64,000 nucleotides of DNA, from IMG/VR virus record IMGVR_UViG_3300046648_000324, positions 1 to 64,000 of that record; one strand, given 5' to 3'. This stretch comes from a virus. The position numbers were made by a program, and so were the translations under genes. Below, piece by piece: positions 30,901-54,977 of this stretch (position 1 is its first letter; each line of letters opens with the position of its first letter). The notes under the pieces were generated by a model. That model had not been told where the DNA came from. It worked only from the letters and a program-made list of their open reading frames with translations, and searched no databases.

Positions 30901-32986
30901 GAATTTCAAGCCGCTGCTCGACGTCGCCACCGCGGCCGCCGGGATCGGCTCGGCGCGGATCCGCGACATGGGGATCCCGGCGCTGACCAAGATCGCCGAC
31001 CTGGTGCGCCTGCACGACACCAAGGAAGGGGTCGACCCCGGCTACCTGCCGGCGGCCGGCATCGCGCGCCGCGCCTTCGGCCAGCAGCTGGTCAAGGCGA
31101 TGGGCGACTTCACCGCCGAGCAGGCCAACGCGGCGATGGCCGCGATCGCGCAGGACCTGACGCCGGTCGACGCCCACCAGGCGCGCCTGATGAGCGCGAT
31201 GCGGCGCACCATGGGCGACGTCCACGCCTACATGCGCGAGGCCGGGGTGCGCATCGGCGCGCGCGGCCTGAACGGCATCAACGGCAGCAGCTACGCGCCG
31301 CGGGTGTGGGACCCGGGCGCGATCGCCGGCCACCAGGACGCGTTCCGCGCGATGATCCAGAAGTACATCGACAGCGGCGACTTCATCGGCTCGGCCGACG
31401 CCCTGATGACGCGCCTGATGCGCGACGAGGGCACCGAGATCGAGCCGGGCACGGTGGCCGGCCCCGGCGACCAGCACGCCAAGACGCGCGAACTGCACTT
31501 CATCACGGCCGCCGACGCGGCGCCGTTTGTCGAGAAGGACGCGCTGCGGATCCTGACCTCGTACATCGCCCAGGGCACCCGGCGCGCCGAGTGGTCGCGC
31601 CGGTTCGAGGCGATGAGCGCGGCCGAGCGGCGCCACTTCGAGACCTTGACCCCGTACGCGCAGCGCCAGTTCGAGCTCGAGCGCGAGCGGCCGCTGGCCA
31701 TGCTCAAGCGCAACGCGGTCGAGCAGGGCGCGACCCCCGACCAGATCAAGCAGCTGGACCGCTACCTGGAGGGCGTCACCGGCCAGCTGGGGCGCGACGT
31801 CAGGCCGGCCACGCGCCGCCTGTTCGCCCAGGTGATGGTGTACCAGAACCTGCGCCTGCTGCCGCTGGGGTTCTTCTCGACCCTGATCGACCCGGTCGGG
31901 GTCAAGGTGCGCGGCGGCACCCTGGGCGACGTGTTCAACAATTTCAAGCGCGGCATCCTGGAAATCCCGCGCGGCTTCCAGAACAACCCGAAGAGCGACG
32001 CCGGCTACCGCTTCGCCGAGGACCTGGGCGTCATCGACTCGGCCGTGCTGCAGCACGTGATGGGCGCCTCGTACGGCCTGGGCGCGGCCGGCAACCGCAC
32101 CCGCGCGCTGAACGAGGCGGTGTTCAAGTGGAACCTGATGGACCAGATGAACACGTCGCAGCGGGTCGGCGCCACCGAGGCCGCGCTGCGCTTCCTGCTG
32201 CGCCACCGCGACGGCGACGCCAGCGAGCACTCGTTGCGCTACCTGGGCGAGCTGGGCCTGAAGCCGGCCGACATCAAGGTCGTTGGCAGCGGGCGCGACG
32301 CCCGGGTCGCGGTGCGCCCCGAGGACTTCAGCGCGGCCGGCTACACCGAGGCGGCCGCGCTGGCCGCGCACCTGAAGATGCGCCAGGCCGTCAACCGCTG
32401 GGTCGACGGCGCGATCCTGCGCCCCGACCAGAGCAACAAGGCGATCTGGATGAACGACCCGATGTACGCGCTGGTCGCGCACATGAAGCAGTTCTCGTTC
32501 GCGTTCCAGGACACGATCCTGAAACGCGTGCTGCACGAGGCGCGCCACGGCAACTACCAGCCGGCGGCGGCGCTGGCCGGCTACATCCCGGTGATGCTGG
32601 CGGCCGACCTGGCGCGCGGCGCGATCCAGGGCGGCGGTTCGCAGCCGGACTGGAAGCAGGGCTGGGACCTGGGCGACTATCTGGCCAACGCAATCCAGCG
32701 CGCCGGCCTGTTCGGGGTCGGCCAGTTCGCGCTGGACGCGGTCAAGGAAGTGCGCCACGGCCACACCGGGATCGGCGCGCTGGGCGGGCCGACGGTGGCG
32801 CAGCTGGCCCAGGTCGTGGCCACCGTCGGCGGCCAGCGCAGTCTGGCGGCGACCACGATCGACGCGATGCCGGCCAACGCGCTGTGGAGCGGCTACCTGC
32901 CCGGCACCACCCGCAGCCACAGCCTGGGCCATGACGGCGACTCGACCGAGTACAGCCCGACCGAGCCGATGCAGATCGACGACTGA
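24965..32986 (+). CDS. Giant polyvalent ejected protein (ART-like and HExxH segments)
   Basis: 2,673 residues. Residues about 95-260 contain Gly/Ala hydrophobic stretches (GLVPMAAGAAVGGIPGMIAA) like those of membrane-active ejected proteins. About 880-1,100 is coiled coil. About 1,500-1,760 resembles the ADP-ribosyltransferase-like domain of phage polyvalent proteins (VYGAGTYLS, YHVSVDVPREHLMSWDYPIS, SLGIPGHEYASDGG, NFVIYDDSRIRTN). HESLHWFADH (His1833) is an HExxH metallopeptidase-like motif. The remaining C-terminus is helical. No RNA polymerase motifs found. Probably packaged and injected; activities are inferred. Confidence 0.8.
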   Translation: MGILADIDALYAGAPAKPAAPLAPAQPSAFSRGLRAGGADLAGQARALLGQGAELLGADQLAAEQRAASVAAQQEGASIMEGLPQSYHDVHGLRDAWDYATGLVGRAGPGLVPMAAGAAVGGIPGMIAATMPSTIGAQFEAQQEDPVAAAKPVGERTLTGAVAGGAEAAVMGVVPGVMGGKLFAKAATGAARVPLGQAVATNLGEAVVGNAVAGNVAARIGQGAAGALNPARDTSQDEAQQMEATVGGAVMGAPFAALGVAGSRRAPKAPKEPAPAKPGAATPDAPATFEQQLAGLSAALTPDHVTGREHADAAIDGTETPATMAGRDAAGEDQARTKAQAKVAKLLADPEAAHLHAELNQLDPVTTSGQQRIGELNVQHFTAQKRKADLAADNATLDAALRSAPEEAGEAAKDYSGAEAKVYDLMDGPEWADFSAEDKQAAVALLRKAVETGERTGEIPMLRAARTVMRGQDLADRLLRVYHVLGSSDPARREQFFAAFAKMNAHIKRDDGLRYAVKSALPQHLRGIGDDQVDAFIDGMKAVSGENLSKSMGANEMKVAKTRIDDHLFDIFGDKAEGLIGAFAKHAQDSEELVPAGLEEKAKLKSAADEHAEGDEANPAVEGSGEGAAPRREGVEADTDNGDVHIYYGRKPDAKDRSPFVLNDAAHAKLYPHDSDATRPQSKRMARAAAENPVPPDPYAEDPGAPPRNVRWMGAREFAELHGMDQEQLARHTGGKPDDYGLAVVRVPKQDEFSLSDADLDGMRFGRHTMATDPVTGKQVEKHTAPASGWLKSEKARETAFEVGEHLFDATRVASYMARSDGHGKGIAFSAADDAHGKTYRTARAFAEGIAALSIKLGRQIEVPEHVIVERAKGGRPALTWGDLQDVLKDGTASAARALAPLRNERDSLYADRAKAVGDKAQAAFADAIEDVNARIAQVRKAHGMDREAFDGSDSTTAELQAKLSDRQVELERSQEAQARLEAKASRSKQEEKNLAYHRRQVAFLQPMVASLTHTLEQRANAATFNEAKLGSEHGTGRDIGEGIDLRREQLRAAEAGAAQYQHLLEQLNAHKPGSPGEGAVWARERERVKAQIKTSFSRTPRDEVMASKPYRRMEGYLRIVEKRDRAQIEALRERALAAADASGKTFETVDGKPVVAAARRGEDAAGNQAPALDASGKPVTAEKRRETTWRKAVGGDDSGLGISEADPLGNVHHAAAEHGTEDNPDALGEVASKVRQKAGEYTEPTEPRDLAPVLPEARWAALNALPATLPKNLGAALRALIDNAGILSKAHRKEFDKLIGDDGKPRDQAALRATVKDLVGKYRTSPSWSSTGEHAFANIASEGGPVHAAILKKVAKSEDARELHTALLDLLGSKNPNEHKARVIDAMTARIGELMAEYPDTGYALQLKSAQETGGMLTPAQQAFADKVGKGGVTSRRTVDGMRTSDDVAALQRAQRALAGADPDNVHVARALGVIEDRLAALEGKTAAKPATAKPEPEGTMYSLESTRVHDELERDGFAATHDSPIRHDGTFNWRAHEGNGEGNDVYGAGTYLSTAEEVHQGYKKQFTRAIKGDGLINNPHYRGLQEQLAALRWEDKTPANERKAAALRAEMKAFEDRYKISGLNADKSPTYHVSVDVPREHLMSWDYPISRQSAYVQQALARGAKMLDDPDQYPLPKGMQLRSFDGKPGDALRNRFGAEVYRDLAMLLGSNRDASEYLQSLGIPGHEYASDGGADLDRPNFVIYDDSRIRTNYTELSRERQGTAASSAAAQQAVHDYVNRVTGGAVDVNAAAQLLYAGSYLKGGKDAAGVDYRPVINVSVHALNPLSTAYHESLHWFADHLRQHGEPAVMAALTRAADSAYVRNFLRNKFRDQPDALKQVEGASEERVAYMYQFHRNGELQLGTRAKTILDRIGELVNRVLGVWSNDARALHIMDYFGSGQYAREFGGGPVRPGAAAAAHKAMMEVGRNKTLDRLHANFKPLLDVATAAAGIGSARIRDMGIPALTKIADLVRLHDTKEGVDPGYLPAAGIARRAFGQQLVKAMGDFTAEQANAAMAAIAQDLTPVDAHQARLMSAMRRTMGDVHAYMREAGVRIGARGLNGINGSSYAPRVWDPGAIAGHQDAFRAMIQKYIDSGDFIGSADALMTRLMRDEGTEIEPGTVAGPGDQHAKTRELHFITAADAAPFVEKDALRILTSYIAQGTRRAEWSRRFEAMSAAERRHFETLTPYAQRQFELERERPLAMLKRNAVEQGATPDQIKQLDRYLEGVTGQLGRDVRPATRRLFAQVMVYQNLRLLPLGFFSTLIDPVGVKVRGGTLGDVFNNFKRGILEIPRGFQNNPKSDAGYRFAEDLGVIDSAVLQHVMGASYGLGAAGNRTRALNEAVFKWNLMDQMNTSQRVGATEAALRFLLRHRDGDASEHSLRYLGELGLKPADIKVVGSGRDARVAVRPEDFSAAGYTEAAALAAHLKMRQAVNRWVDGAILRPDQSNKAIWMNDPMYALVAHMKQFSFAFQDTILKRVLHEARHGNYQPAAALAGYIPVMLAADLARGAIQGGGSQPDWKQGWDLGDYLANAIQRAGLFGVGQFALDAVKEVRHGHTGIGALGGPTVAQLAQVVATVGGQRSLAATTIDAMPANALWSGYLPGTTRSHSLGHDGDSTEYSPTEPMQIDD

Positions 32987-33045: not shown

Positions 33046-33192
33046 CGGGATGCGCCAGCTCGCCACCACCAGCATGACGATCAGCGCCGCTGCTGCCCAG
33101 CCATAATCGCCATCGCTGGCCCAGCGCCAGAAATCCACGCCATTGGCCAGCCCGAGCGCCCACTGCAGGCACAGCAGTTGGCGGCGCGACAT
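33025..33192 (-). CDS. 55-residue membrane protein
   Basis: The frame begins MSRRQLLCLQWALGLANGVD and contains a membrane helix (AAAALIVMLVVASW, about residues 33-46), then a short basic tail. Its start forms ATGA with the XRE regulator stop. The stop codon lies inside the terminator hairpin, so translation to the end would interfere with hairpin folding. No family recognised. Confidence 0.55.
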   Translation of the reverse strand: MSRRQLLCLQWALGLANGVDFWRWASDGDYGWAAAALIVMLVVASWRIPPARPGA

Positions 33193-33413
33193 CAGGACGG
33201 CTCCGCGTCGAACTTCTCGAACTTCACCACGATCCGATAGCCCAGGATTTCCGCTATCTCCGTCGCCAGCACGTCTGTCAGGGATTGGTTCTGCTTCTCG
33301 ATATTGGTGATGCTGGTGCGCGTCAAGCCCACCGACTCGGCCAGCGCGCCCTGTGTCATGCCCTTCATTTTGCGCAGCGCCCTGATCGTCGGGCCGAGTG
33401 TATTCTTCTTCAT
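33192..33413 (-). CDS. XRE-family DNA-binding regulator
   Basis: 73 residues. One helix-turn-helix domain: LGPTIRALRKMKGMTQGALA then ESVGLTRTSITNIEKQNQ, with a short C-terminal extension (LGYRIVVKFEKFDAEPS). Start at 33,413 chosen because it forms ATGA with the upstream stop; a longer in-frame start at 33,440 would overlap that gene. Candidate lysogeny or copy-control repressor by size and place near RepL, but its targets are unknown. Confidence 0.85.
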   Translation of the reverse strand: MKKNTLGPTIRALRKMKGMTQGALAESVGLTRTSITNIEKQNQSLTDVLATEIAEILGYRIVVKFEKFDAEPS

Positions 33414-33673
33414 CAGGATGGCTCCGCCTCGACCGGCCACAGGCGCTGGAAACCGTCGCTGCGGCGGTAGGCCTTGGCGGTCAGGTCATACACCATGTTG
33501 CCCGGCGCCAGCGCCAGGTAGGTGCGGATGTCGAGCGACGCCTGCGGCATCGACAGCGCGAAGTAATCCATGATCGTGGCCCGGTTGATGTGGCCGTAGT
33601 TGGCCAGCAGGCACTCGATGAATTGCAGGCGCTGTAGCAGCGCCGGGCGCAGGGTGGATAGGTCGGGGGTCAC
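33413..33673 (-). CDS. Small winged-helix protein, paralogue 1
   Basis: 86 residues from a GTG start in a GTGA overlap. LLQRLQFIECLLANYGHINR, TIMDYFALSMPQASLDIRTY and APGNMVYDLTAKAYRR form an HTH domain like the N-terminus of WYL/DeoR-type regulators. The rightward gene at 36,854 encodes a clear paralogue (LLDYYGSVARAEVMDFCGIG...APGNMWLDHATKRYLR). Probable DNA-binding regulator or partition accessory. Confidence 0.75.
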   Translation of the reverse strand: MTPDLSTLRPALLQRLQFIECLLANYGHINRATIMDYFALSMPQASLDIRTYLALAPGNMVYDLTAKAYRRSDGFQRLWPVEAEPS

Positions 33674-33882
33674 GGGGACGCTCTCACAGGGGTTGGCAAC
33701 GGCGCCATGCGCGCGATGAAGTCGGCCACGGTGCGGTAGTACAGCACGCCGCTGTGGATGTCGCGGTACACCAGCAGCGCCTCGGCGTCCCGTGAGGTGC
33801 CGGCGCCCAGCGCCGAGCCGAGCAGCTCGTAGGCGCCGCCCTTGCCGCTGCAGGTCCAGTGGGTGATCGGGGGCAGGCTCAT
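33670..33882 (-). CDS. DUF1653-like small protein
   Basis: 70 residues. CSGKGGAYELLGSALGAGTS, ALLVYRDIHSGVLYYRTVAD and FIARM resemble the DUF1653 beta fold (KGGxYEVLG...VYRxxxG). Start chosen at the ATGA overlap; a longer frame from 33,939 would overlap the previous gene. Function unknown. Confidence 0.7.
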   Translation of the reverse strand: MSLPPITHWTCSGKGGAYELLGSALGAGTSRDAEALLVYRDIHSGVLYYRTVADFIARMAPLPTPVRASP

Positions 33883-34139
33883 GGGGTGGGCTCCGCGCTG
33901 CGCGGCTGCGATTCGATGTCGATCAGGTGCCGGATCCACTGCTGGGCGCCGGCCTTGGTCAGGTGGGCGCTATCGGGGTCGCGCGCGACCCAGTCTGGCC
34001 AGCAGCCGTGCCAGCCGCTCAGCTGCATGTAGGCGCGCATGGCGCCGACCGACTTGTCGCCGCCGTTCTGGTAGTACAGCAGGAATGCGCGCAGTGCGCG
34101 GTTCTCGCCGTCGTCGTCGAGCAGGTCGCGGGGGCTCAT
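33879..34139 (-). CDS. Conserved small phage protein
   Basis: 86 residues (MSPRDLLDDDGENRALRAFL...MQLSGWHGCWPDWV...HLTKAGAQQWIRHLIDIE). Helical, Trp-rich centre. Coupled by ATGA to RepL upstream and to the DUF1653-like gene downstream, so it belongs to the repL operon. Not recognised. Confidence 0.7.
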   Translation of the reverse strand: MSPRDLLDDDGENRALRAFLLYYQNGGDKSVGAMRAYMQLSGWHGCWPDWVARDPDSAHLTKAGAQQWIRHLIDIESQPRSAEPTP

Positions 34140-34663
34140 TTGAACATCCGTTCCTGGCCGGCCACCTCGAGCAGCTCGCGCGATTTCTGGTCGGCGCCGC
34201 CCTCGAGCACCTGCAGTTCGACCTGGCGCCCGCCGTCGGCCGAGTATTGGGTGACCATGCGGAACACCGCGCGCCGTTCGCGGATCTGCTTCCACTCGCC
34301 CTTGGCGAACAGGAACGGGTCGAGCTCGTAGTCGCCGCGCCCCAGCTTCTTCAGCAGCCCGGCCTTGACGCAGGCGCCGATCGCGTTCTCGACGCTCTTG
34401 GGCTGCTGGCCGACGGTGGCCGCGATGCGCTGCTTGCGGCCCGAGGTCAGGCTGACGATCCCCTCGTAGTCGACGCTGGCCGCGATGTACAGCAGGATTT
34501 CCTGGTGCCCGGCCTGGATGTTGAAAAAGCGCGCGACGTCCTGCACGTACAGCTTGATGTACTCGGGCTCCCTGGCCATCGGCTTTAAGGCCGGGTCGCC
34601 GATGTCGAGCGGTTTGCCGGTGGCGATATCGGTGACGCTGCTCTTGCGGACGGCCTTGCTCAT
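34136..34663 (-). CDS. repL: RepL-type replication protein
   Basis: 175 residues after GAGGAAC. The pattern KLYVQDVARFFNIQAGHQEI, LLYIAASVDYEGIVSLTSGR, RIAATVGQQPKSVENAIGAC and LKKLGRGDYELDPFLFAKGE matches RepL plasmid/phage replication initiators: a winged helix followed by the family's LxPxLFxKGxW motif. Probably starts replication at DNA within or next to its gene. Lies downstream of a hairpin-rich leader (34,700-34,900). Leads the operon ending in the XRE regulator. Confidence 0.8.
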   Translation of the reverse strand: MSKAVRKSSVTDIATGKPLDIGDPALKPMAREPEYIKLYVQDVARFFNIQAGHQEILLYIAASVDYEGIVSLTSGRKQRIAATVGQQPKSVENAIGACVKAGLLKKLGRGDYELDPFLFAKGEWKQIRERRAVFRMVTQYSADGGRQVELQVLEGGADQKSRELLEVAGQERMFK

Positions 34664-34735
34664 CGGGGTTCCTCGCAGGTGTGGTGACGGCTGTCAATAT
34701 TATCACCGAGTAATCCCCCAACGCTAGGGGGGTGA

Positions 34736-34886
34736 CCCCCTGCAGCCAGGGGGTGTTTTTTAACAGAATTGTGAAAATCCACGTCAAATGCCCCCTGTTT
34801 CCAGGGGGCGACCTAGCCCTGGAATAATGGGTGTTGTCGGGAATCCCGACCCCCTGGATTGGGGAAGGAAACCCCCCAATCCAGGG
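34736..34886. repeat. Three CCCCCTG/CAGGGGG-type inverted repeats upstream of repL
   Basis: Perfect inverted repeats: 34,736-34,742 with 34,747-34,753; 34,790-34,797 with 34,802-34,809; and a 13-base one, 34,852-34,864 with 34,874-34,886. All contain CCCTG or CCCTGG and pair with CAGGG. A G-run at 34,727-34,732 could pair alternatively with the first arm. On the plus strand the first hairpin is followed by TTTTTT (34,756-34,761), a terminator. Iterons, operators or a RepL leader attenuator are possible. Confidence 0.7.
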
Positions 34887-34998
34887 AAGAAATCGGGCAT
34901 ACGCCCTTATACTTACTGGGCTCCTGACATCTCTTCTATACACGTTAACTATGCTATATCTCAGGGCTGTTTCCGTGGCTCGCGGCCTGACGCGCTTG

Positions 34999-35053
34999 CG
35001 CTTGTCGGCTCACCGATTTGCTGCGCAAACCGGCAAGCGGCGTTTTTTTTTTT
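34999..35053 (+). terminator. Rightward terminator with 11-T tract, no gene upstream
   Basis: CGCTTGTCGG (34,999-35,008) pairs with CCGGCAAGCG (35,030-35,039; one T-G wobble), enclosing TTTGC-tgc-GCAAA; GCG and eleven T residues follow. No rightward gene precedes it, so it may end a small RNA that starts in the AT-rich island at about 34,900-34,960. Confidence 0.55.
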
Positions 35054-35315
35054 ATTTACCAGCTGTCGCTTTTTGGCACAAGGCCCTCGGCCTGCAGGCA
35101 ACGGCAACGCGTGCAGACCTGCGGGGACGCGCCAGCGCGCCGGTTTCTCGCTTTAGCGGCGTGGCCCGTCCAGGGCCATCCCCGGCCTGCGCGGCGGTCC
35201 TCCAGACCGGCCGCCCCGCGGCGCCGAGGTTCCACGGACACCTTCTCCCTATGGGCGCAGCCCATCACTTCATGCTCGCCCTCATCCTATGGGCGCGCGC
35301 CCATCACTTTTTGGG
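35054..35315. other. Gene-free gap with two ATGGGCGC palindromes
   Basis: I see no convincing gene. Near the end lie ATGGGCGCAGCCCAT (35,251-35,265) and ATGGGCGCGCGCCCAT (35,289-35,304), each preceded by CT and followed by CACTT, a direct repeat of palindromes. They lie just downstream of the leftward gene ending at 35,316, so they may act as terminators or protein sites. Confidence 0.5.
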
Positions 35316-35636
35316 TCAGGGGTCGACCGTCTCGCTGCCGTCCGGCGCGCGCCGGCGCCCGGTCATCGGGTCCTTGTGCCAGCCCTGCGGCTCGGTGCCG
35401 GCGGCGCCGTCCCACGCGTCGAGCGCCGCCTTGGCGGCCGCGTAGTCGTGGTAGCACCAGCGCCGCGCGTAGCCGAGCGGCTCCATGTCGGCCAGGATCG
35501 CGTGGGTGAACAGGAAGCGGGCGATGCCGCAGATGCCGGCGTCGCCCTTGGGCGCGACGTCGTGGTAGAGGCCCTCGCCGCGCTCGACGATCAGGGCGAT
35601 CAGGGCGGCGGTGGCGGGGTCGGTGGGGGTGCTCAT
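35316..35636 (-). CDS. Conserved phage protein (ArgArgTrp-CysTyrHis type)
   Basis: 106 residues. LGYARRWCYHDYAAAKAALD, WDGAAGTEPQGWHKDPMTGR and RRAPDG form a signature seen in many phage proteins of unknown function. Start at 35,636 follows GGAG; the longer frame from 35,669 lacks a site. Last gene of a short leftward unit. Confidence 0.75.
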   Translation of the reverse strand: MSTPTDPATAALIALIVERGEGLYHDVAPKGDAGICGIARFLFTHAILADMEPLGYARRWCYHDYAAAKAALDAWDGAAGTEPQGWHKDPMTGRRRAPDGSETVDP

Positions 35637-35679
35637 GGCGGGGCTCCTTGAAACGGCGCAGGGTAGCACGGCGCTGCGC

Positions 35680-35925
35680 TCAGGCGCGCGCCGCAGCCAG
35701 CCGGCTGGCGAACACCAGCCGCAGCGCCTGCGCGCACAGCTCGTCGCGGGCGGCGGCCTGGGCCCGTGCCAGCACGAATGCGCGCGCGGCGGCGTCGGTG
35801 GTGAAGATGTTGGAAGCGTCGTCGCGCAGGACCTCGAGCAGCAGCCGGCCGTCCCACACCTCGGCCAGCAGCCAGCCCTGGCCCCGTGCTTTTTTTGCCT
35901 GCTCCGCGTTCCAGTCCTGTATCAT
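35680..35925 (-). CDS. Small protein divergent from the par cluster
   Basis: 81 residues (MIQDWNAEQAKKARGQGWLL...EVWDGRLLLEVLRDDASNIF). GGAGGCGCC precedes the ATG. Divergently oriented from the rightward par-like cluster, sharing its 72-base promoter region. Helical C-terminus rich in Ala/Arg. Not recognised. Confidence 0.7.
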   Translation of the reverse strand: MIQDWNAEQAKKARGQGWLLAEVWDGRLLLEVLRDDASNIFTTDAAARAFVLARAQAAARDELCAQALRLVFASRLAAARA

Positions 35926-35941
35926 GGCGCCTCCGTGTGAT

Positions 35942-35993
35942 GGTATGCAGCAGCATACCGCATCCGGTACCCCGATACATACCTGACTACCAA
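35942..35993 (+). promoter_or_regulatory. TACC-rich operator/centromere candidate before the par cluster
   Basis: GGTATGC-agca-GCATACC is a perfect 7-base inverted repeat (35,942-35,959), followed by CCGGTACC, CATACC and CTACC units. The site lies between divergent genes and just upstream of parA, where type Ib par loci keep the operator/centromere bound by their RHH protein. It shares its GTACC/TACC core with the dispersed elements elsewhere. Confidence 0.45.
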
Positions 35994-35997
35994 CGAC

Positions 35998-36192
35998 ATG
36001 AACTTCTCACTCGAACTGACCTGTGACAACGCGGCGTTCGGCCCCACCTTCGAGGATGCGACGGCCGAGATCGCGCGGATCCTGCGCCTGGCCGCGGTCG
36101 CGGTGGACGCTGCCAACGTGCCGCAGCGGCGCACCGCCTACAACCTGCGCGACATCAACGGCCACATCGTCGGCACCTGGAGCCTGGCGTGA
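35998..36192 (+). CDS. Small protein, paralogue of 56,946-57,161 product
   Basis: 64 residues (MNFSLELTCDNAAFGPTFED...YNLRDINGHIVGTWSLA). The C-terminal DINGHIVGTWSL and the IARIL helix recur in the leftward protein at 56,946-57,161 (DINGQVAGGWSLT). No Shine-Dalgarno is visible. Its end overlaps the parA start. Function unknown. Confidence 0.65.
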   Translation: MNFSLELTCDNAAFGPTFEDATAEIARILRLAAVAVDAANVPQRRTAYNLRDINGHIVGTWSLA

Positions 36193-36857
36193 TCTACCTG
36201 GTGGGGTCGTCGAAAGGGGGCGCCGGCAAGTCGACCGTGGCGGTCAACCTGGCCGCGCTGCTGGCGTCCCTGCGCGGGCGCGACGTGCTGCTGGTCGACA
36301 CCGACCAGGCCCAGCCCAGCTCGTCCCTGTGGGCCAGCCTGCGCGCGGCGCGGCCGGCGGCGCCGCCGCTGTCGTGCGTGGCGTTCGGCGCGGCCAGCCT
36401 GGGCCACGAAGTGCGGCGCGCGCTGCGCAAGTACGACGACATCGTGCTCGACGCCGGCGGCCACGATTCGGCCGAGCTGCGCGCGGCGCTGCTGGTGGCC
36501 GACGTGGTCTTGATGCCGGTGGCGCCGGCGCTGTTCGACATCGCGGCGATGGCCACCGACAGCAAGCTGCTCGACTTCGCGCGCCAGTTCAACCCGGCGC
36601 TGCGGGCCTTCATCGTGATCAACAACGCCTCGACCCATTCGTTTGAATCGGGCACGCGCGACACGCGCGAGCAGGCGCGCCAGCTGGCGCCGAACTACGC
36701 GATGCTGGACACCGTGCTGCGCCGCCGCGCGACCTATGACAGCGCCAAGCTGGCCGGTCTCGGCGTGGTCGAGCTCGGGGCGCGCGACAAGGCGGCGGAA
36801 CTGGAAATGCGCGCGCTGTTCAACGAGCTAGCGATGGCGCTGCCGGAGGGCGCATGA
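36189..36857 (+). CDS. parA: ParA-family partition ATPase
   Basis: 222 residues, the size of small (type Ib, ParF-like) ParA proteins. Deviant Walker A SKGGAGKST with signature Lys9 and Lys14; LLVDTDQAQPSSS (35-47) is the A-prime motif and DDIVLDAGG (83-91) the Walker B. Would move DNA on the nucleoid with a centromere-binding partner. It lacks an N-terminal HTH, so autoregulation should come from the small DNA-binding proteins encoded next to it. Confidence 0.88.
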   Translation: MIYLVGSSKGGAGKSTVAVNLAALLASLRGRDVLLVDTDQAQPSSSLWASLRAARPAAPPLSCVAFGAASLGHEVRRALRKYDDIVLDAGGHDSAELRAALLVADVVLMPVAPALFDIAAMATDSKLLDFARQFNPALRAFIVINNASTHSFESGTRDTREQARQLAPNYAMLDTVLRRRATYDSAKLAGLGVVELGARDKAAELEMRALFNELAMALPEGA

Positions 36858-37075
36858 ACGGCGCGTTACAGGCGCGGCTGCGCCTGATCGATTTCCTGCT
36901 CGACTACTACGGCTCGGTGGCGCGCGCCGAGGTCATGGACTTCTGCGGCATCGGGCCGGCCCAGGCCTCGCGCGACCTGGCGCTGTACCTGGAACAGGCA
37001 CCGGGCAACATGTGGCTCGACCACGCCACCAAGCGCTATCTGCGCAGCTCCTTCTTCGAGAGGCAATTTCCATGA
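36854..37075 (+). CDS. Small winged-helix protein, paralogue 2
   Basis: 73 residues, ATGA-coupled to parA. LRLIDFLLDYYGSVARAEVM, DFCGIGPAQASRDLALYL and APGNMWLDHATKRYLR align with the leftward protein at 33,413-33,673. A DNA-binding protein within the par-like cluster; it could regulate the cluster or bind partition sites. Confidence 0.75.
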   Translation: MNGALQARLRLIDFLLDYYGSVARAEVMDFCGIGPAQASRDLALYLEQAPGNMWLDHATKRYLRSSFFERQFP

Positions 37076-37299
37076 GCACCAAGCCGAACAAGTTCGCCGC
37101 CGCCGCCGACTTCATCCGCGCCGCGCCGACCGAGGCCGCCAGCGGCGGTGGACGGCGCCCGCCAGCGGCGGACTCGCGCCTGACGGTCAACATCGACCGC
37201 GCGCTGCACCTGCGGGTCAAGCTGTACGCGGTGGCCAACTACACCTCGATCGGCGAACTGATCGAGGAGTGGATCGAGCAGCACGTGCCGCCGGGCTAG
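37072..37299 (+). CDS. Ribbon-helix-helix protein, probable ParG-like partner
   Basis: 75 residues, the same size as ParG. A flexible basic N-terminus (residues 1-38) precedes a ribbon-helix-helix domain: SRLTVNIDRALHLRVKLYAV then ANYTSIGELIEEWIEQHV. That architecture and its place downstream of a ParF-size ParA match centromere-binding/repressor partners of type Ib partition systems. ATGA overlap with the previous gene. Partner role is inferred. Confidence 0.75.
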   Translation: MSTKPNKFAAAADFIRAAPTEAASGGGRRPPAADSRLTVNIDRALHLRVKLYAVANYTSIGELIEEWIEQHVPPG

Positions 37300-37311
37300 T
37301 CCGGCTCGCCG

Positions 37312-37617
37312 CTATTCTTCGCGGTCGAGCACGGAACGCACGTGGTGTGCGATCAGGCCGCCCACGGTCAGCGCGGGGTCGAGCGGATCGAACGGCACCC
37401 CGGCCGCGGCGCAGCGCGCCTCGATTTCGTCGCGCCAGACGTCGGGGAGCGGGCCGTACTGGCACTTTTCATACTCCTCGATGATCAGGGCCAGCAGGTG
37501 CAGCTGGTCGGCCTCGGGGGTGCCGAGCGCCGGGTCGAGTTTGATCAGTTCCTGCACGGCCGCCATCGCCAGCATATAGGCGTCGGCGTCGCGGATCGGC
37601 TTGATCAGGTTGATCAT
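37312..37617 (-). CDS. HigA-like N-terminal protein without HTH
   Basis: 101 residues after AGGAGC. IKPIRDADAYMLAMAAVQEL and GTPEADQLHLLALIIEEYEK resemble the N-terminal half of COG5499 HigA-type antitoxins (PIxxxxDYxxALxxIxxL...GTPExDxLxxLxxLIExYE), but no helix-turn-helix follows. It is the last gene of the leftward early operon and converges with the par cluster. Function unknown. Confidence 0.7.
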   Translation of the reverse strand: MINLIKPIRDADAYMLAMAAVQELIKLDPALGTPEADQLHLLALIIEEYEKCQYGPLPDVWRDEIEARCAAAGVPFDPLDPALTVGGLIAHHVRSVLDREE

Positions 37618-37620
37618 GGG

Positions 37621-37836
37621 TCAGCTCCTTTTTACCTTGACGGCTTCCAGCACCTGCCCGAGGTGCCGGTAGGCGGTCAACGTCGCGACATAGGAAAAAT
37701 TCCCTGCCGGCGATTCGGCCAGCATGGCGATCAAGCCTTCCCTGACACCGGGGCGGCTCAATGCGCCGCCGATCATGCCAAGGTGGAGGGCCAGCTCGGA
37801 CAACAGCGTCTGGTCGTGTTGGTCTTGGGCGCTCAT
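37621..37836 (-). CDS. Small helical phage protein
   Basis: 71 residues (MSAQDQHDQTLLSELALHLG...FSYVATLTAYRHLGQVLEAV). Start at the ATGA overlap with the gene at 37,833. Mostly helical; not recognised. Confidence 0.65.
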   Translation of the reverse strand: MSAQDQHDQTLLSELALHLGMIGGALSRPGVREGLIAMLAESPAGNFSYVATLTAYRHLGQVLEAVKVKRS

Positions 37837-38126
37837 GCCGCTTCCGGCTCCTGGTCGCCGATGCGGTGGGTGGTGACGCCGGTGATCCCGCTTGGGAGCG
37901 CCGGCTTCCCCGGGACCGGCGCGGCGTCGAGCACCTCGCCCATGAAGCCGGTCCCCTTGACCTTGCCCTGGGTCGCCTTGACCAGTTCGACTTCGACCTT
38001 GGCGCTGTTGATGATGACCTGGCCGAGGTTGCCGATCACGGTGGCGTTTTCGACCGGCACGGTCTTGTTGCGCACGCCTTCGATGGTCTGGAAGATCGCC
38101 TCGCGCAAGTCCTGGATGGTGTTCAT
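37833..38126 (-). CDS. Conserved small phage protein
   Basis: 97 residues (MNTIQDLREAIFQTIEGVRN...GQVIINSAKVEVELVKATQG). The combination of an N-terminal helix and INSAKVEV is common in early regions of Burkholderiales phages, without known function. GAGGAAC precedes the ATG, which overlaps the HNH stop. Confidence 0.7.
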   Translation of the reverse strand: MNTIQDLREAIFQTIEGVRNKTVPVENATVIGNLGQVIINSAKVEVELVKATQGKVKGTGFMGEVLDAAPVPGKPALPSGITGVTTHRIGDQEPEAA

Positions 38127-38620
38127 GGTTCCTCTTTGTGTCGTTGGTTGATTTCACGCGTGAGCACGGCTTTGAGCCGGATCAGGCTGGCCAGTTCGGG
38201 CGGCAAGGTGCTCTCCGGGTGGTAGCGCATGATCCAGTCGGCCTTGGCCACCAGCTCCAGGTTGGCCAGGCCGGTGTGCGCCGGGTTGCCGTCGCGGAAG
38301 GTCAGTATGTGGTCGTCGGGCAGCGGGCCGTGCGCCGCCTCCCACACCGTGTGGTGCAGCAGGCGCCACGCTTGCGGCCAGCCGCCTTCGGCCACCTTCA
38401 GGTACTGGTAGCCCTTGGTGCCGTACACCCGCACGCTGCCGGGCGGCAGCGTGTTGTGCGGCGGCCCCTTCGGCTTGGCCAGGCCGAGTGCGCGGGCGCG
38501 GGCGCGCACCGCGTCCGCACTGCGCTCCAGGGCCGCCGCCACCGCGCCCCACGCCAGCGCCGGGACCAGCGCGGCCAGCGCCAAGTCGTCGTCCGCCGAC
38601 CATGGCCTGCGCTGCTTCAT
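38123..38620 (-). CDS. HNH endonuclease with N-terminal HTH
   Basis: 165 residues. Residues 5-47 (SADDDLALAALVPALAWGAV...SADAVRARARALGL) form a SANT/HTH-like segment. RLLHHTVWEAAHGPLPDDHI, LTFRDGNPAHTGLANLEL is the HNH_3 nuclease core with His89-His90, His104 and Asn119. Could be a free-standing homing-type nuclease or part of phage DNA processing. Neighbours give no further clue. Confidence 0.85.
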   Translation of the reverse strand: MKQRRPWSADDDLALAALVPALAWGAVAAALERSADAVRARARALGLAKPKGPPHNTLPPGSVRVYGTKGYQYLKVAEGGWPQAWRLLHHTVWEAAHGPLPDDHILTFRDGNPAHTGLANLELVAKADWIMRYHPESTLPPELASLIRLKAVLTREINQRHKEEP

Positions 38621-38627
38621 CGCCTGC

Positions 38628-38960
38628 TCAAGGCTGGTCGCCGGCCAGCGCCTCGTAGGCCGGCATCGCCAGCAGCCAGCCGCGCTCCTGGAATTCCTTG
38701 AACGCGGCGTCGGCCACGCGGCTGGCGAAGCTGGCGATTTCAGCCGGTTCGCGCAGGCGCATCGCCTGGCGTCCGGCCGAATCCTCGCCATCCGGGGTGG
38801 CGGCGATCAGCGCGAAGCGCTCGATGATCTGCATGGCAAAGCCGGCGCGCGGGTCGGGCTGGAACGCCGCATGGGCGACCACGCCGCCTTCGCGCGCGTA
38901 GCGATCCTTTACCGGGACCACGTGCAGGCTCATCATGTCGTTGCTGGCTACTTGGGTCAT
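38628..38960 (-). CDS. Early phage protein
   Basis: 110 residues after AAGGAGA (MTQVASNDMMSLHVVPVKDR...FAMQIIERFALIAATPDGED). Mixed alpha/beta with a helical end. Not recognised. Confidence 0.65.
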   Translation of the reverse strand: MTQVASNDMMSLHVVPVKDRYAREGGVVAHAAFQPDPRAGFAMQIIERFALIAATPDGEDSAGRQAMRLREPAEIASFASRVADAAFKEFQERGWLLAMPAYEALAGDQP

Positions 38961-38984
38961 GCGTGTTCTCCTTGGGGGTGGGGG

Positions 38985-39281
38985 TCAGTGGCGCACGCCG
39001 GGCGCGGCCGGCGGCGCGGCGGTGTCGGTGGCTTGCACGACTTCGACCGTCTGCACCCCCATGCCGGTGGCGAACAGCTGGAAGTAGGTGCCGACCACTT
39101 CCTCGGTCGGGTTGCCCTGGTTGACCGCGTGCTGCACCAGCCCGCCCGCGATGGTGCCGAACAGGTAGGCGGCGCGCCCGAACGCGACGCGCTCGTCCTT
39201 GAGCTGGGTGACGATGCGGTCGCGCAGGGCTTGCTCGGCCTCGGTCAGGGGGCCGGTCAGGTGGGAGGTGTCGGGGGTCAT
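38985..39281 (-). CDS. Early phage protein
   Basis: 98 residues after AAGGAG (MTPDTSHLTGPLTEAEQALR...AYLFGTIAGGLVQHAVNQGN). One amphipathic to hydrophobic stretch near the middle; possible weak membrane contact. Not recognised. Confidence 0.65.
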   Translation of the reverse strand: MTPDTSHLTGPLTEAEQALRDRIVTQLKDERVAFGRAAYLFGTIAGGLVQHAVNQGNPTEEVVGTYFQLFATGMGVQTVEVVQATDTAAPPAAPGVRH

Positions 39282-39339
39282 GGGGTGCTCCTTGCAATGG
39301 GGGGTATTGTAGCCGATTGCGCGTGCGCAAACGCAATTT

Positions 39340-39735
39340 TTACCCCGGGCGCTGCCTGACCGTGATGGCGAACCCGGGCAGCTCGATGGTGATCACGTCG
39401 TGTTCGGACGTGATCAGGATGTTGGGCTTGTCGACCAGGGTGGTGCGCGCGCCATACACCTGCGGCGTGGCGCCGGCCCCGTGCACCGGCGCCGGGCCCG
39501 GTTCGCGCCAGACGTAGGCCCAGCGCGAACTGTCGCGCGCGTTCTTGGCCGCCGCGACCCGGGTGGCGTGGCCTTTGCGCCACAGCCCCCCCAGGTAGTC
39601 CGACACCCGGTTGGCCGAGTGCGCCAGCGCGCGGACGTCGGCCCGCTCGTACAGCTCGACGCAGGTCAGCGGGTGGTCGGCCGCCTTCAGCAGCTCGCTC
39701 AGCAGCTGGTACAGGCCGGACTCCATCTTGCTCAT
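39340..39735 (-). CDS. Winged-helix-like early protein
   Basis: 131 residues. Residues 1-65 (LYQLLSELLKAADHPLTCVE then LYERADVRALAHSANRVSDY, GGLWRKGHATRV) look like a winged helix with a positively charged wing; the C-terminus is beta-rich. A TCTA-N3-TAGA site lies about 35 bases upstream. Candidate regulator. Confidence 0.65.
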   Translation of the reverse strand: MSKMESGLYQLLSELLKAADHPLTCVELYERADVRALAHSANRVSDYLGGLWRKGHATRVAAAKNARDSSRWAYVWREPGPAPVHGAGATPQVYGARTTLVDKPNILITSEHDVITIELPGFAITVRQRPG

Positions 39736-39750
39736 GGTGAACTTTCGTTT

Positions 39751-39879
39751 CTATTGAAGATGCGTGATTCTATAATAGATCGGACGAAAGGCTTGCACGA
39801 TTTCATGCAAAACCAGCAAACCGGTGATGATGGCGGCGGCCAGCCGCGCCAGCAGGTCGGCCAGGGTGAGCAGGATCAT
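39751..39879 (-). CDS. 42-residue membrane peptide
   Basis: MILLTLADLLARLAAAIITG followed by LLVLHEIVQAFRPIYYRITH: one amphipathic membrane helix and a basic aromatic tail. TTTGGAGCCC gives a good ribosome site. It contains the TCTA-N3-TAGA site near its 3-prime end. A small membrane protein of unknown role. Confidence 0.6.
   Translation of the reverse strand: MILLTLADLLARLAAAIITGLLVLHEIVQAFRPIYYRITHLQ
39769..39779 (-). promoter_or_regulatory. TCTA-N3-TAGA palindrome before 39,735 gene
   Basis: TCTATAATAGA with GATCGG on its right side; read leftward it is CCGATCTATTATAGA. TATTAT could be a -10 box. No matching -35 found. Confidence 0.4.
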
Positions 39880-39897
39880 GATGGGCTCCAAAGAAAG

Positions 39898-39920
39898 AAA
39901 GCCGGCACGCGGCCGGCTTT
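39898..39920 (-). terminator. Leftward terminator after the nuclease gene
   Basis: AAAGCCGGC (39,898-39,906) and GCCGGCTTT (39,912-39,920) form a perfect 9-base stem with a 5-base loop. Read leftward it ends in TTTCTTTCTTT. It follows the VRR-NUC-like gene (stop 39,939). Confidence 0.7.
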
Positions 39921-39938
39921 GGGAAGGGATCGGGGTGC

Positions 39939-40328
39939 TCAGCTGGTGGCGGCCACCAGCGCCGCCGCCAGCGCCGGGCGCGTCAGCAGGCGCGCGCGGA
40001 ACGCGGCGCAGGTCAGCGCCTGCTCCCACGCCAGGTCGCGCAGCAGCACCCCGCCCTCGCGGCAGCCGACGATCACCGCCAGGTTGCGCCCCTCGGCGTA
40101 GCGGGCCCGGCCCCACTCCAGCTGCAGCGCCGACAGCGCGATTGGCACCAGGGTGGCGGGCCGGACCGGCAGCAGCACGTGCTTGTACTCGACCCACAGG
40201 TCGCGCGCGCCCGAGTACCAGACATCCCAGGTGCCGCCGTGGTACGGGTTGTGCATCTTTTCATGATACAGCCCGCGCGGCAGGTGGCGGTGCAGCGCCT
40301 GGTAAAAGCTGGTCTCGGGCTTGCTCAC
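39939..40328 (-). CDS. VRR-NUC/PD-(D/E)XK-like nuclease
   Basis: 129 residues from a GTG start in a GTGA overlap. ETSFYQALHRHLPRGLYHEK, GGTWDVWYSGARDLWVEYKH contains the catalytic pattern D...ExK (Asp in WDVW, Glu-Tyr-Lys), as in VRR-NUC and related phage endonucleases acting on branched or ends-bearing DNA. Possible role in recombination or host DNA degradation. Followed by a terminator. Confidence 0.7.
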   Translation of the reverse strand: MSKPETSFYQALHRHLPRGLYHEKMHNPYHGGTWDVWYSGARDLWVEYKHVLLPVRPATLVPIALSALQLEWGRARYAEGRNLAVIVGCREGGVLLRDLAWEQALTCAAFRARLLTRPALAAALVAATS

Positions 40329-40570
40329 GGCGCCGCGCGCAGGCGCGCGATCAGCGGCGCCAGCGCCGGGTCGCATAGCGCCTCGGCCGCCAGCAGGCCG
40401 CCGCTGGCCGCGTCCAGCTTGAGCGCGGACAGCACGCTGCAGGGCGCCTTGCCGTTGGCCAGCCGGCTGATCAGCGAGGGCGGCAGGCCGCTGGCGGCGG
40501 CCAGCTGCTGCTGCTTGACGCCGGGGCGCGCCAGGTAGTCGGCCAGGGTCAGCGTCAGCGCCGGGTTCAT
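40325..40570 (-). CDS. Cro/YdaS-like HTH regulator
   Basis: 81 residues. TLADYLARPGVKQQQLAAAS, GLPPSLISRLANGKAPCSV is a compact helix-turn-helix of the Cro/YdaS type. Overlaps both neighbours (ATGA/GTGA), so it is co-expressed with the exonuclease and nuclease. Targets unknown. Confidence 0.8.
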   Translation of the reverse strand: MNPALTLTLADYLARPGVKQQQLAAASGLPPSLISRLANGKAPCSVLSALKLDAASGGLLAAEALCDPALAPLIARLRAAP

Positions 40571-41163
40571 GCGGCCTCCGCGACCTGGCAGCCGACCCGG
40601 TCGGCGCCGCTCAGCGCGCGCAGGCAGCGCTGCAGGCGGCGCGCCTGGTGCACGGCGTCGGAGGCGGCGTGGTGCAGGTCGGGGTTGGACCCGGCCAGCG
40701 CCAGGTCGCGCAGCGCCGGCAGCTTGGTGATGGTGCGCAGGCAGTTGGTGTTGCGGTACTGCCACGGCACCTCGTAGCCGAAGCTGCGGTAGGCGTGCGC
40801 CAACAGCGGCAGGTCGAAGTCGGCGCCGAAGCTCCACACCTGGGTGGCATCAAGGCCGCGCGGCGCCAGGTAGTCGGCCAGCGCTTCGAGCGCGCAGCGC
40901 AGGGTGGTCTTCGGTTCATGGAACACGCGCTGGGCCTGGTCGCTCTGGTTGAGCCACCAGAGCAGGGTGTCCTCGTCCAGGTGGCGCTGGCCGGCCTCGT
41001 GGTTGGAGTCGATCGAGACCGACAGGTAGAACGGCTGCGGGTCGAGCGCCGCGCCGTACGGGTCGAAGCGCACCGCGCCGATCGACAGGATCACGCTGTC
41101 GGCGCGCGTGCCCAGGGTTTCGGTGTCGAGCATGGTATGGGTCAGATGCGGGGTCAGGTGCAT
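40567..41163 (-). CDS. DEDD 3'-5' exonuclease
   Basis: 198 residues from ATG 41,163 after GAGAAGG. MLDTETLGTRADSVILSIGA carries Exo I (DxE); ADFDLPLLAHAYRSFG is Exo II; HHAASDAVHQARRLQ is Exo III with the final Asp. Resembles DUF5051/Rv2179c-type RNase T-like exonucleases common in phages. Likely RNA or DNA 3-prime trimming during replication. Confidence 0.85.
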   Translation of the reverse strand: MHLTPHLTHTMLDTETLGTRADSVILSIGAVRFDPYGAALDPQPFYLSVSIDSNHEAGQRHLDEDTLLWWLNQSDQAQRVFHEPKTTLRCALEALADYLAPRGLDATQVWSFGADFDLPLLAHAYRSFGYEVPWQYRNTNCLRTITKLPALRDLALAGSNPDLHHAASDAVHQARRLQRCLRALSGADRVGCQVAEAA

Positions 41164-52007: not shown

Positions 52008-52493
52008 TTAGCGCACCGGGTCGTCGAGGAAGCTGGCCGGCGGCGGCTCGACCCGGATCACTTCCAGCGCGCCGCAGCGGCGGGCCTGGCCGCGGGTTTC
52101 GATCGGGGCCCGCCCGCGCCAGCAGCCGGCGCGGGTCTGGACATTGACCATCAGCACGTCGAGCTTGCCGGGGTAGTCGCCGATCGAGCCGTACTGGTCG
52201 ATGATCTCCCGGTAGCGCGGGCTGTCGGCGGATGACAGCGACCAGGCTTCCGACACCGCGATCGTCATGTCGGCATGGATCGTGGTCGCGGTCCAGCGCA
52301 CCATGGCGCCGGCGATGTCGGTGGCGATTTTTGCCGGCATGTGCTGCTCGACCGGCACCAGGAGCTGCTCCTTGGAGTCGATCACGTAGGTGACCGGGGT
52401 CACCGCCCCTTCGGTCAGCTGTTCGCGGCAGATCGCCATGATCCGCTCGACCAGCGGCGCGACGTCGGGCGGGAAGGTGGTGGGGGTGTTCAT
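52008..52493 (-). CDS. Paralogue A flanking the lone rightward gene
   Basis: 161 residues after GAGGACCC. The central part (AVSEAWSLSSADSPRYREII, DQYGSIGDYPGKLDVLMVNV, QTRAGCWRGRAPIETRGQAR) aligns clearly with the protein encoded at 54,189-54,977. Between them lies the only rightward early gene. Function unknown; the shared domain is likely a small alpha/beta enzyme-like fold. Confidence 0.7.
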   Translation of the reverse strand: MNTPTTFPPDVAPLVERIMAICREQLTEGAVTPVTYVIDSKEQLLVPVEQHMPAKIATDIAGAMVRWTATTIHADMTIAVSEAWSLSSADSPRYREIIDQYGSIGDYPGKLDVLMVNVQTRAGCWRGRAPIETRGQARRCGALEVIRVEPPPASFLDDPVR

Positions 52494-52523
52494 CGGGTCC
52501 TCCATCATTGTTCATCAATAAAC

Positions 52524-52552
52524 TTGACACTTGGTAGCTTCTCTCCTACAGT
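52524..52552 (+). promoter_or_regulatory. Strong sigma70 promoter for the lone rightward gene
   Basis: TTGACA (52,524-52,529), 17-base spacer, TACAGT (52,547-52,552). The -35 is consensus. CATCA(A/T)T motifs flank it at about 52,503, 52,513 and 52,569 and might be operator sites for autoregulation or for the divergent leftward promoter. Confidence 0.65.
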
Positions 52553-52594
52553 GGGTCCGGGATGCTCCATCAATGAGATAAACGGGGAACAGCA

Positions 52595-54160
52595 ATGAGC
52601 GATGGGGAACGCAGTGGCCGTGTCTATTGGAGTGAGGAAGAATACCTGGCATTGGCGCGGGCGCTGATTGGCCAGGTCGCGGAGTTTGCCAATGCGCGCA
52701 CCGAGCATGATTTGAACGCGCTGGGGCTGGGGATGTCGCTGTTCAAGAGTACGATGGAGCAGGCGTTGGCGCCGGAACGCCGGCGCGACCTGCGCCACCT
52801 GCGCGGGGTGCGCGCGCCGCTGGTGGCGGCATTTGGCGCGCTGCGCGGCGAGCGCGCGATGACCCCGCGCAAGGTGGCGGTGGCGGTGTCCAAGCCGCCG
52901 GCCGAGCCGGTGCACTGGACCGAGCGCGAATGGGAGCAGTTTGCCACCAAGGTCGCCGCGCTGCAGCCGGAGCTGGACCGCACCACGCTGGCCGGCCTGT
53001 CGCTGCGCGCGCTCAACGCGGCCGGGGCCGCGATGGGGCGCCGCCGCGAGTTCCGCGCGCTCGGGCTGGCCAGGAAGGGGCTGCTGCCGGCGTTCGCGCG
53101 GCTGGCGGCGCCGGCGCGCTTCCAGCGGGCGCCGGCGCCGGCAGAACCGGTGCTGTATGTCAAGCCGGAAGCCCCGGCAGCTGAAGCGGAGGAAGCGGCG
53201 GCACCGGAAGCGGGGCCGGACGCGGCGCCAGGCGCGCCGGCCGCCGACGCCAAGCCGAACCTGTGGGCGCGCATCACCTGGAGCCGCGACGAGTGGCTGG
53301 TCGTGGCGGCCGAGCTGCACCGGATGTTCCCGGCCCAGAACTACCCGGCGCGCGAACAGCTGGTCGGGATCAACAGCCAGGACGTGGCGTTCGCCCAGCG
53401 CGTGCTGCCGCTGGCGCGCCAGCGGCGGGCGCTGAAGCTGGTGTCGATGACCCAGATGCGGCCGCAGCTGCAGCAGGCATTCCGCACGCTGGCGGCGCAC
53501 CTGGCGGCCGACGCCGCCCATGCGGCCGAGGCGGCGGCAGCGCCGGCCCCGCCGGTGGCAGGGGCAGCGCCGGCGCCGGCGGCCGAAGCGGCGCCCGCCG
53601 CATTCCCAACCTATATTCCCAGCGAGCCGGGCGCCGCGCCCGACCCGTACCGGGCCGCGTTCGCGCCGCTGGTGGCGCTGCTGGCGGGCGCGGTCGGCGA
53701 CCAGGTGGTCGACCGGTTGAAACCGCTGATTACCCAGCTGCTGGCCGAGGCGCTGGGGGCGCCGGCCGCTGGTGCACTGGGCGCGGGGCAGGCGACGCTG
53801 GCGCCGGCCAGCCTGGCGGCGAGCGCGGTGGCCGGGCCGGCGCCCGCGCCCGAACGGCGCGCGGCGCCCAGGAAGCCGAGCGTCGGCGTGTTCACCAACC
53901 GGCTCGACCCGTGGCGCCAGGAATTGCCGGTGGCGTTCCCGGGGATCGAGTTCACCGTGATCGACACCCCCAAGAAGATCGACGCCATCGCCCGCTGCGA
54001 CAAGGTGGTGGCGATGACCCGCTTCGTCGGCCATGCCGGTTTCGACAAGGCCAAGCGCGCCGGCGGCGAGCGGTTCGTGCCGTGCGACGGCGCCATGACC
54101 GAACTGAAGCGCCTGATCGGGCTTTTGGTGACCAGCGGCGCGCTGGCGGCGGCGGCTTAG
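52595..54160 (+). CDS. Three-repeat protein with DUF2325-like C-terminal domain
   Basis: 521 residues after GGGGAACAG. Three related helical repeats: 10-83 (VYWSEEEYLALARAL...), 106-170 (VHWTEREWEQFATKV...) and 227-301 (ITWSRDEWLVVAAEL...), each starting W[ST]xxEa and ending with xxAFxxL. Pro/Ala linkers separate them. Residues 428-512 (SVGVFTNRLDPWRQELPVAF, IDAIARCDKVVAMTRFVGHA, ERFVPCDGAMTELKRLIGLL) resemble a DUF2325-type domain. Sole rightward gene in the early region, with its own promoter. Perhaps a regulator or moron; function unknown. Confidence 0.75.
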   Translation: MSDGERSGRVYWSEEEYLALARALIGQVAEFANARTEHDLNALGLGMSLFKSTMEQALAPERRRDLRHLRGVRAPLVAAFGALRGERAMTPRKVAVAVSKPPAEPVHWTEREWEQFATKVAALQPELDRTTLAGLSLRALNAAGAAMGRRREFRALGLARKGLLPAFARLAAPARFQRAPAPAEPVLYVKPEAPAAEAEEAAAPEAGPDAAPGAPAADAKPNLWARITWSRDEWLVVAAELHRMFPAQNYPAREQLVGINSQDVAFAQRVLPLARQRRALKLVSMTQMRPQLQQAFRTLAAHLAADAAHAAEAAAAPAPPVAGAAPAPAAEAAPAAFPTYIPSEPGAAPDPYRAAFAPLVALLAGAVGDQVVDRLKPLITQLLAEALGAPAAGALGAGQATLAPASLAASAVAGPAPAPERRAAPRKPSVGVFTNRLDPWRQELPVAFPGIEFTVIDTPKKIDAIARCDKVVAMTRFVGHAGFDKAKRAGGERFVPCDGAMTELKRLIGLLVTSGALAAAA

Positions 54161-54188
54161 CGTCGGCCTAGCGGGTCTAGTGTCGGTC

Positions 54189-54977
54189 CTAGTGCCGGGT
54201 GACCGGTGCGCACGTCTCGGCGTAGCGCGCCAGCTGGGCGCGCAGGAACGCCAGCAGCAGCTCCTGGGTCGGGTAGCTGGCCTTGATCATGTCCAGCAGC
54301 GCGGCCTGGGCCTCGGCGGTGGGGGTGGCCCCGAGCCGGGCGAAGCCGTCGCGCATCGCCGCCAGCAGGTCGTCATGGGTGACGCTGCCGTCGTTGATGC
54401 GGCGCGCAAAGTCGGGGTTCAGGAACGTCATGCCGGTGGCGCCGAAGTCGTCCGAGACGGGGGCGCCGGGGGCGGCCAGGAAGCCGGTGTAGCGGCCGCG
54501 GGTTGCCGTGTCCGGACTGAGCGCCGTGTACACGACCGGGCCCAGGGTGCGGCTGCGCGCCTTGCGCTCGATCGGGGCCTGGCCCGACCAGGTGCCGGCG
54601 CGGGTCTCGACCGACAGCGACACGATCTCGGTGTGGCCGGGGTAGGCCGCCAGCGAACCGTACTGGTCGAGGATCGCCTCGTAGCGCGGCAGGTCGGCCG
54701 GGGTCAGCGACCAGGCCTCCGACAGCAGGATCACGACGTCGGCGGCGGCCGCCTGCGCGACCTGGCGCACCAGCGCGGCCGAGGCGTCCTTGGCGGCGTC
54801 GTCCTCCTGGTCCAGGATCACGGTGTCATAGGTCTTGTCGCGCGTGTTGAGCACGAACGCGGTGCCGGTCAGCTCCTCGTTATCTAGCAGCTTGCTGCGC
54901 GCCTGGCGCAGCAGGTTGTCGCAAAATTTATTCAGCTCGGCCGGCATGGCCGGCGCACTGGTGGTGTCGCTCATCAT
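54189..54977 (-). CDS. Paralogue B flanking the lone rightward gene
   Basis: 262 residues after GAGGAGAACC (ATG 54,974 is equally possible). Shares LLSEAWSLTPADLPRYEAIL, DQYGSLAAYPGHTEIVSLSV and ETRAGTWSGQAPIERKA with the protein at 52,008-52,493, plus a helical C-terminal extension (LLAAMRDGFARLGATPTAEA). Converges with the rightward gene across a 28-base gap. Function unknown. Confidence 0.7.
   Translation of the reverse strand: MMSDTTSAPAMPAELNKFCDNLLRQARSKLLDNEELTGTAFVLNTRDKTYDTVILDQEDDAAKDASAALVRQVAQAAAADVVILLSEAWSLTPADLPRYEAILDQYGSLAAYPGHTEIVSLSVETRAGTWSGQAPIERKARSRTLGPVVYTALSPDTATRGRYTGFLAAPGAPVSDDFGATGMTFLNPDFARRINDGSVTHDDLLAAMRDGFARLGATPTAEAQAALLDMIKASYPTQELLLAFLRAQLARYAETCAPVTRH

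Follow-up and report, generated by a model that had tools for sequence, protein, structure and literature searches.

Gene g, on a virus record of 70,400 bp, has three known relatives, and the four make up a protein family not described before, carried by phages that appear to persist as plasmids. We put at roughly 50% the probability that its product acts in a dormant plasmid state as a basic DNA-binding regulator or maintenance factor, encoded in a cassette with SEAW-family genes that moved from a maintenance module. The window, i.e., the whole stretch of DNA that was analyzed, comprises bases 1-64000 of the record (G000) and has a GC content of 70%. The former orphan is now a family in context, with four members, a fixed layout, and relatives located by repL and near parA; the choice of a phage-plasmid between silence and killing the host can rest with genes like this. 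The features of the locus are as follows.

52008..52508, minus strand: paralogue a of the SEAW family, 166 aa
52524..52552, plus strand: putative sigma-70-like promoter of g, TTGACA-N17-TACAGT, 10 of 12 consensus bases, in the AT-rich gap 52509-52594
52595..54160, plus strand: gene g, with three basic, predicted helical repeats, linkers rich in Ala and Pro, a putative helical segment, and, at the C-terminus, a Rossmann-like domain; three full-length homologues
52616..52852, plus strand: repeat R1 of g, residues 8-86, opens with WSEEEY
52904..53113, plus strand: repeat R2 of g, residues 104-173, opens with WTEREW
53267..53500, plus strand: repeat R3 of g, residues 225-302, opens with WSRDEW; four predicted helices, pLDDT 83
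53645..53758, plus strand: putative helical segment flanked by linkers, residues 351-388 or thereabouts, alignable across the four homologues; helicity suggested by the sequence
53867..54145, plus strand: DUF2325-like C-terminal domain of g, predicted alternating strands and helices, pLDDT 83
54189..54977, minus strand: paralogue b of the SEAW family, 262 aa

The reading frame of g (ATG at 52595, stop at 54160) specifies a protein of 521 aa with a pI of 9.8, and its codon-position GC (0.77/0.56/0.90) indicates that it is coding. The same measure resolved the layout of the record into late genes running rightward to about 33 kb, a mixed stretch from 33 to 37.3 kb, and leftward genes to 70.2 kb, with g as the one clear exception. 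Between 37312 and 70245, all other well-supported genes point leftward by codon-position periodicity, and the few further rightward ORFs that passed the filter each overlap leftward genes; the description of g as the sole rightward gene of the early region in the first-pass annotation is thus borne out over 37.3-70.2 kb. The near-consensus promoter claimed there is present as a site and is the only one of its kind in 45-60 kb, but chance would yield 0.6 per scan, and the motif alone is therefore not significant. What backs the putative promoter is its position in a divergent, AT-rich gap of 86 bp (47% GC versus 70% in the window). RNA folding of the promoter region revealed nothing notable (z 0.62), and direct repeats around it were discarded as short and unconvincing.

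Single-sequence searches with g or its domains against phages, plasmids, viral contigs, and genome contigs returned no relatives. No g-type protein was matched in 50,697 phage and 72,556 plasmid records, the homologues of g used as queries found nothing in phages and plasmids, and a two-sequence profile found nothing in genome contigs. The relatives were reached only by scans with repeat and SEAW profiles. A profile of the three repeats of g led to a full-length, collinear homologue in contig G017 (29% identity, E 3e-32), which scored 155 bits compared with at most 36 over 300 shuffles, and a search with a combined a/b profile brought up G020 and G021, each with one more full-length, collinear homologue. 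The three relatives, which match at E 1e-30 to 1e-50, reside in viral contigs of about 100 kb that share tail genes with the window phage. All four members have the same layout of three repeats, linkers, helical segment, and C-terminal domain; G020 and G021, which count as two of the four, are close relatives of each other, and their homologue pair is under purifying selection (dN/dS 0.31).

The three diverged repeats proposed from the sequence of g were recovered with a profile built from the repeats of a relative, which matched residues 9-88, 106-170, and 225-300 with E values of 6e-12, 1e-8, and 2e-12, respectively (30-42 bits; the top score among 500 locally shuffled copies was 8.4 bits). 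In all four members the repeats open with W-[S/T/D]-x-x-E-[W/Y/F], and all are basic (12/12, pI 8.5-11.6), as are the whole proteins (pI 9.8-10.0). In a tree of the repeats, repeats 2 cluster together and repeats 3 cluster together, which indicates that the triple layout is old, has been kept, and predates the divergence of the family. Foldseek comparison of the predicted R3 structure with the PDB and with BFVD/predicted viral proteins gave no confident match to any known fold (best E 0.39), and a solved structure could therefore reveal a new fold. Sequence searches of the PDB with the repeat and C-terminal profiles yielded nothing meaningful, and a PHROG match of g to a "transposase" (E 0.03) was taken as chance.

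The genome itself carries a block of maintenance genes at 33192-37299, composed of XRE-like, winged-helix-like, RepL, ParA, winged-helix-like, and ParG-like genes, while its replication genes elsewhere are KPP25-like. Elements of this block, together with the LuxR-type genes found beside two of the homologues, are as follows.

33192..33440, minus strand: XRE-type regulator, 55-58% identical to XRE-like proteins adjoining the SEAW gene in G020 and G021
34136..34663, minus strand: RepL-type plasmid replication protein, 37% identity over 143 aa to plasmid RepL, E 2e-28
35250..35310, plus strand: hairpin element TATGGGC..GCCCATCACTT, two copies starting at 35250 and 35288, upstream of repL
36189..36857, plus strand: ParA-type ATPase, AAA_31 E 1.1e-11; CbiA and MipZ above cut-offs
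36854..37075, plus strand: small, putatively winged-helix-like protein, start overlapping the end of parA; homologues in G017, G018, G020, and G021
37072..37299, plus strand: ribbon-helix-helix, ParG-like protein, sub-threshold Pfam matches; 67% homologue in G018
G020 74831-75559 and G021 31973-32701: LuxR-type genes that overlap the g homologue and encode an autoinducer-binding domain

The window thus holds both a plasmid-type initiator (RepL) and a partition gene (ParA, above cut-offs), by which phage-plasmids are recognized, as well as virion genes, e.g., 16656-17429, which matches a structural protein of Pseudomonas phage KPP25 (40% over 85 aa), and tail-region genes common to G017-G021. 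Judged by its gene content, i.e., RepL, ParA, and the weakly matched ParG-like protein, the window phage is probably a phage-plasmid. It resembles phage-plasmids in joining tailed-phage genes with a plasmid RepL, ParA, and a likely partner protein; it differs from them in that it matched no typed group, has a replication core related to that of KPP25, and has a putative extrachromosomal state. No plasmid maintenance module is annotated in the examined region of KPP25, and a literature search for KfrA in connection with phage-plasmids found no paper. The hairpin recurs in G017 (33668, once before repL), G018 (42578, once before parA), and G020 (73080 and 73123, twice between repL and g), and may belong to an origin or a terminator. 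Near its ends, the record contains a 126-bp exact repeat (24-149 and 70275-70400) that is offset by 23 bases, and the 23 bases preceding it are imperfectly similar. This would fit a circular genome as well as a genuine repeat; in G020 and G021, exact repeats of 127 bp are terminal.

In all three relatives, a RepL-like gene adjoins the g homologue at a distance of 0.5-0.9 kb and parA lies within 10 kb. The G017 RepL exceeds the Pfam cut-off and matches plasmid RepL, and the RepL-like genes of G020 and G021 match more weakly (E 0.03 and 0.01). The order along transcription in G017 is parA, a 200-aa gene, repL, and the g homologue, with an XRE-type gene downstream; in G020 and G021, the homologue and the RepL-like gene point away from each other, about 0.9 kb apart. 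In G020, the next gene downstream, which shares a stop/start overlap with the homologue, is of the LuxR type (autoinducer-binding domain, E 4e-11; LuxR HTH, E 1e-9), and the arrangement in G021 is the same. Two further observations on the 101-kb, phage-plasmid-like contig G017 are a 7,099-codon open frame downstream of the tail-region genes (2848-24147) and a group of HlyD-like and peptidase-containing ABC exporter genes that enclose a small one (36501-40618), which, as read from the sequences, resembles a bacteriocin export set.

The flanking genes a and b are paralogues, as the first-pass annotation had stated: they share 34% identity over 160 aa (E 3e-25) and all five named segments, SEAWSL, DQYGS, YPG, TRAG, and APIE. 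The C-terminal third of b matches a separate 93-aa gene in G017. SEAW genes also occur near parA in three contigs, directly after it and followed by an XRE-like gene in G020 and G021, and at the contig end in G019. From this gene arrangement, the a-g-b cassette seems to be a relocated fragment of a maintenance module. The further proposal that the duplication accompanied the acquisition of g is not supported. In the tree, a branches with its G018 counterpart (support 0.98), separately from b; the duplication hence seems to predate the divergence from G018, which speaks against the arrival of g as its cause, and G018 has no g at that place. This contig is the nearest relative: many of its genes are 70-90% identical, and it retains counterparts of ParA (67%), the ParG-like protein (67%), and the small winged-helix-like gene (62%). 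Directly upstream of its a gene there is another leftward gene and no g; the contig ends at this point, and g may still be present in the missing stretch of roughly 10 kb.

According to the reading that we prefer, g would be transcribed in the dormant plasmid state, from a promoter of its own, and its product would work there with RepL and ParA. The three repeats probably bind DNA, as their charge and context suggest, and the small Rossmann-like C-terminal domain is probably a sensing or protein-contact module. The role might be replication or copy-number control, stable inheritance, or regulation of the exit from the plasmid state, and g and the SEAW genes would have moved from the maintenance module to the replication-gene region at 52-55 kb. 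This reading is supported by the existence of the family and its fixed architecture, the position of its other members beside repL and near parA, the RepL and ParA encoded by the window, the purifying selection on the G020/G021 pair, and the lack of g in the core relatives. Against it, g is at least 15 kb from repL and parA in the window, the repeat has no confident Foldseek match, and the case for DNA binding is drawn from charge and context. RepL-type proteins can serve lytic replication too, as is established for phage P1, and no lysogeny repressor or integrase was proven among the window genes scanned. That g belongs to the lysogenic state, as originally suggested, gains support for the plasmid state, since the core relatives lack g and its own relatives are located by repL and near parA; the defense role that was part of the same suggestion does not. 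The alternative suggestion of a master regulator is plausible as far as a regulatory role is concerned, given the basic repeats and the overlapping LuxR gene in two relatives.

A more specific version of regulation is that g controls a plasmid prophage/lysis switch via a sensing pathway, with the LuxR-type receptor as partner in G020 and G021 and XRE-type regulators in G017 and the window. Lysis of plasmid-like phages is known to be governed by transcription-factor modules that they carry, LuxR plus XRE among them (PMC10432266; also PMC6456758). These precedents make the LuxR-linked explanation a serious rival, and the setting is alike, i.e., plasmid-like phages with LuxR- or XRE-type regulators beside the gene in the g relatives: the stop/start overlap with the autoinducer-binding LuxR gene in G020 and likewise G021, and the XRE-type gene downstream of the homologue in G017. 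However, the known modules pair a regulator with a small lysis-inducing protein and not with a repeat protein of 460-520 aa, and a LuxR gene adjoins g neither in the window nor in G017, and we regard the switch as possible, though less likely than the favored explanation. It is likewise a tentative thought that the family represents a new class of plasmid-state control protein, in which three copies of an unseen DNA-binding fold and a small sensor domain would set the replication or exit of the dormant state, some members being controlled by quorum sensing.

It is unlikely that g is a moron for defense or superinfection exclusion. A single gene in reverse orientation, with a promoter-like site of its own, and its absence from that place in G018 would suit such a role, but beyond this gene position nothing supports it: PADLOC models gave no match at E values up to 1 for seven proteins, including g, its three homologues, and the flanking genes, no recognized nuclease or other effector domain was found, and the relatives of g sit by repL and parA.

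The resemblance of the C-terminal domain to DUF2325 (PF10087), claimed from the start, was seen in three of the four members, in each case below the Pfam gathering cut-off of 33.6 bits. The whole g protein scored 12.8 bits (E 0.14) and its domain alone 16.6 bits (E 0.0091); two relatives reached 19.5 and 19.0 bits (E 0.0011 and 0.0017), and no match was found in the third, G017. Since the matches fall on the same stretch, "DUF2325-like" is a fair label for a domain whose scores never reach the level of membership and which is fused to three helical repeats; the predicted alternation of strands and helices is a further likeness. Its predicted model is Rossmann-like, with generic receiver-like folds as PDB matches (E about 0.01), among which no DUF2325 structure was identified. 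Immediately before parA, G020 and G021 carry another gene whose product ends in a similar domain. No established function of DUF2325 is given in the literature consulted. For Cj1384, a 104-aa DUF2325 protein of unknown function with seven cysteines, a role in oxidative stress has been suggested (PMC9426514). That g is simply a DUF2325 protein with a function of this kind would explain the shared stretch, but it is very improbable in view of the scores, the missing match in G017, and the single cysteine of this domain that is invariant over the aligned set. PMBT54 ORF9, annotated as DUF2325, was set aside because it looks like a virion-module protein.

The DNA polymerase, helicase, RecB-type exonuclease, and DUF2201-type gene of the record are collinear with viral contigs L005, L007, L023, and others, and the first three are adjacent in the same order in KPP25. 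In the interval from the DUF2201-type gene to the exonuclease block, different genes or hardly any are found in these contigs, and g is in none of them. The location of g within the replication-gene region notwithstanding, its absence from KPP25, from the related contigs searched, and from the same place in G018, together with its opposite orientation and own promoter-like site, makes a core structural or replication protein scarcely credible. Beside a DUF5906 helicase-like gene of this 70% GC genome, the GC content falls to 29% at G000 65058-65411 (L002), a candidate origin.
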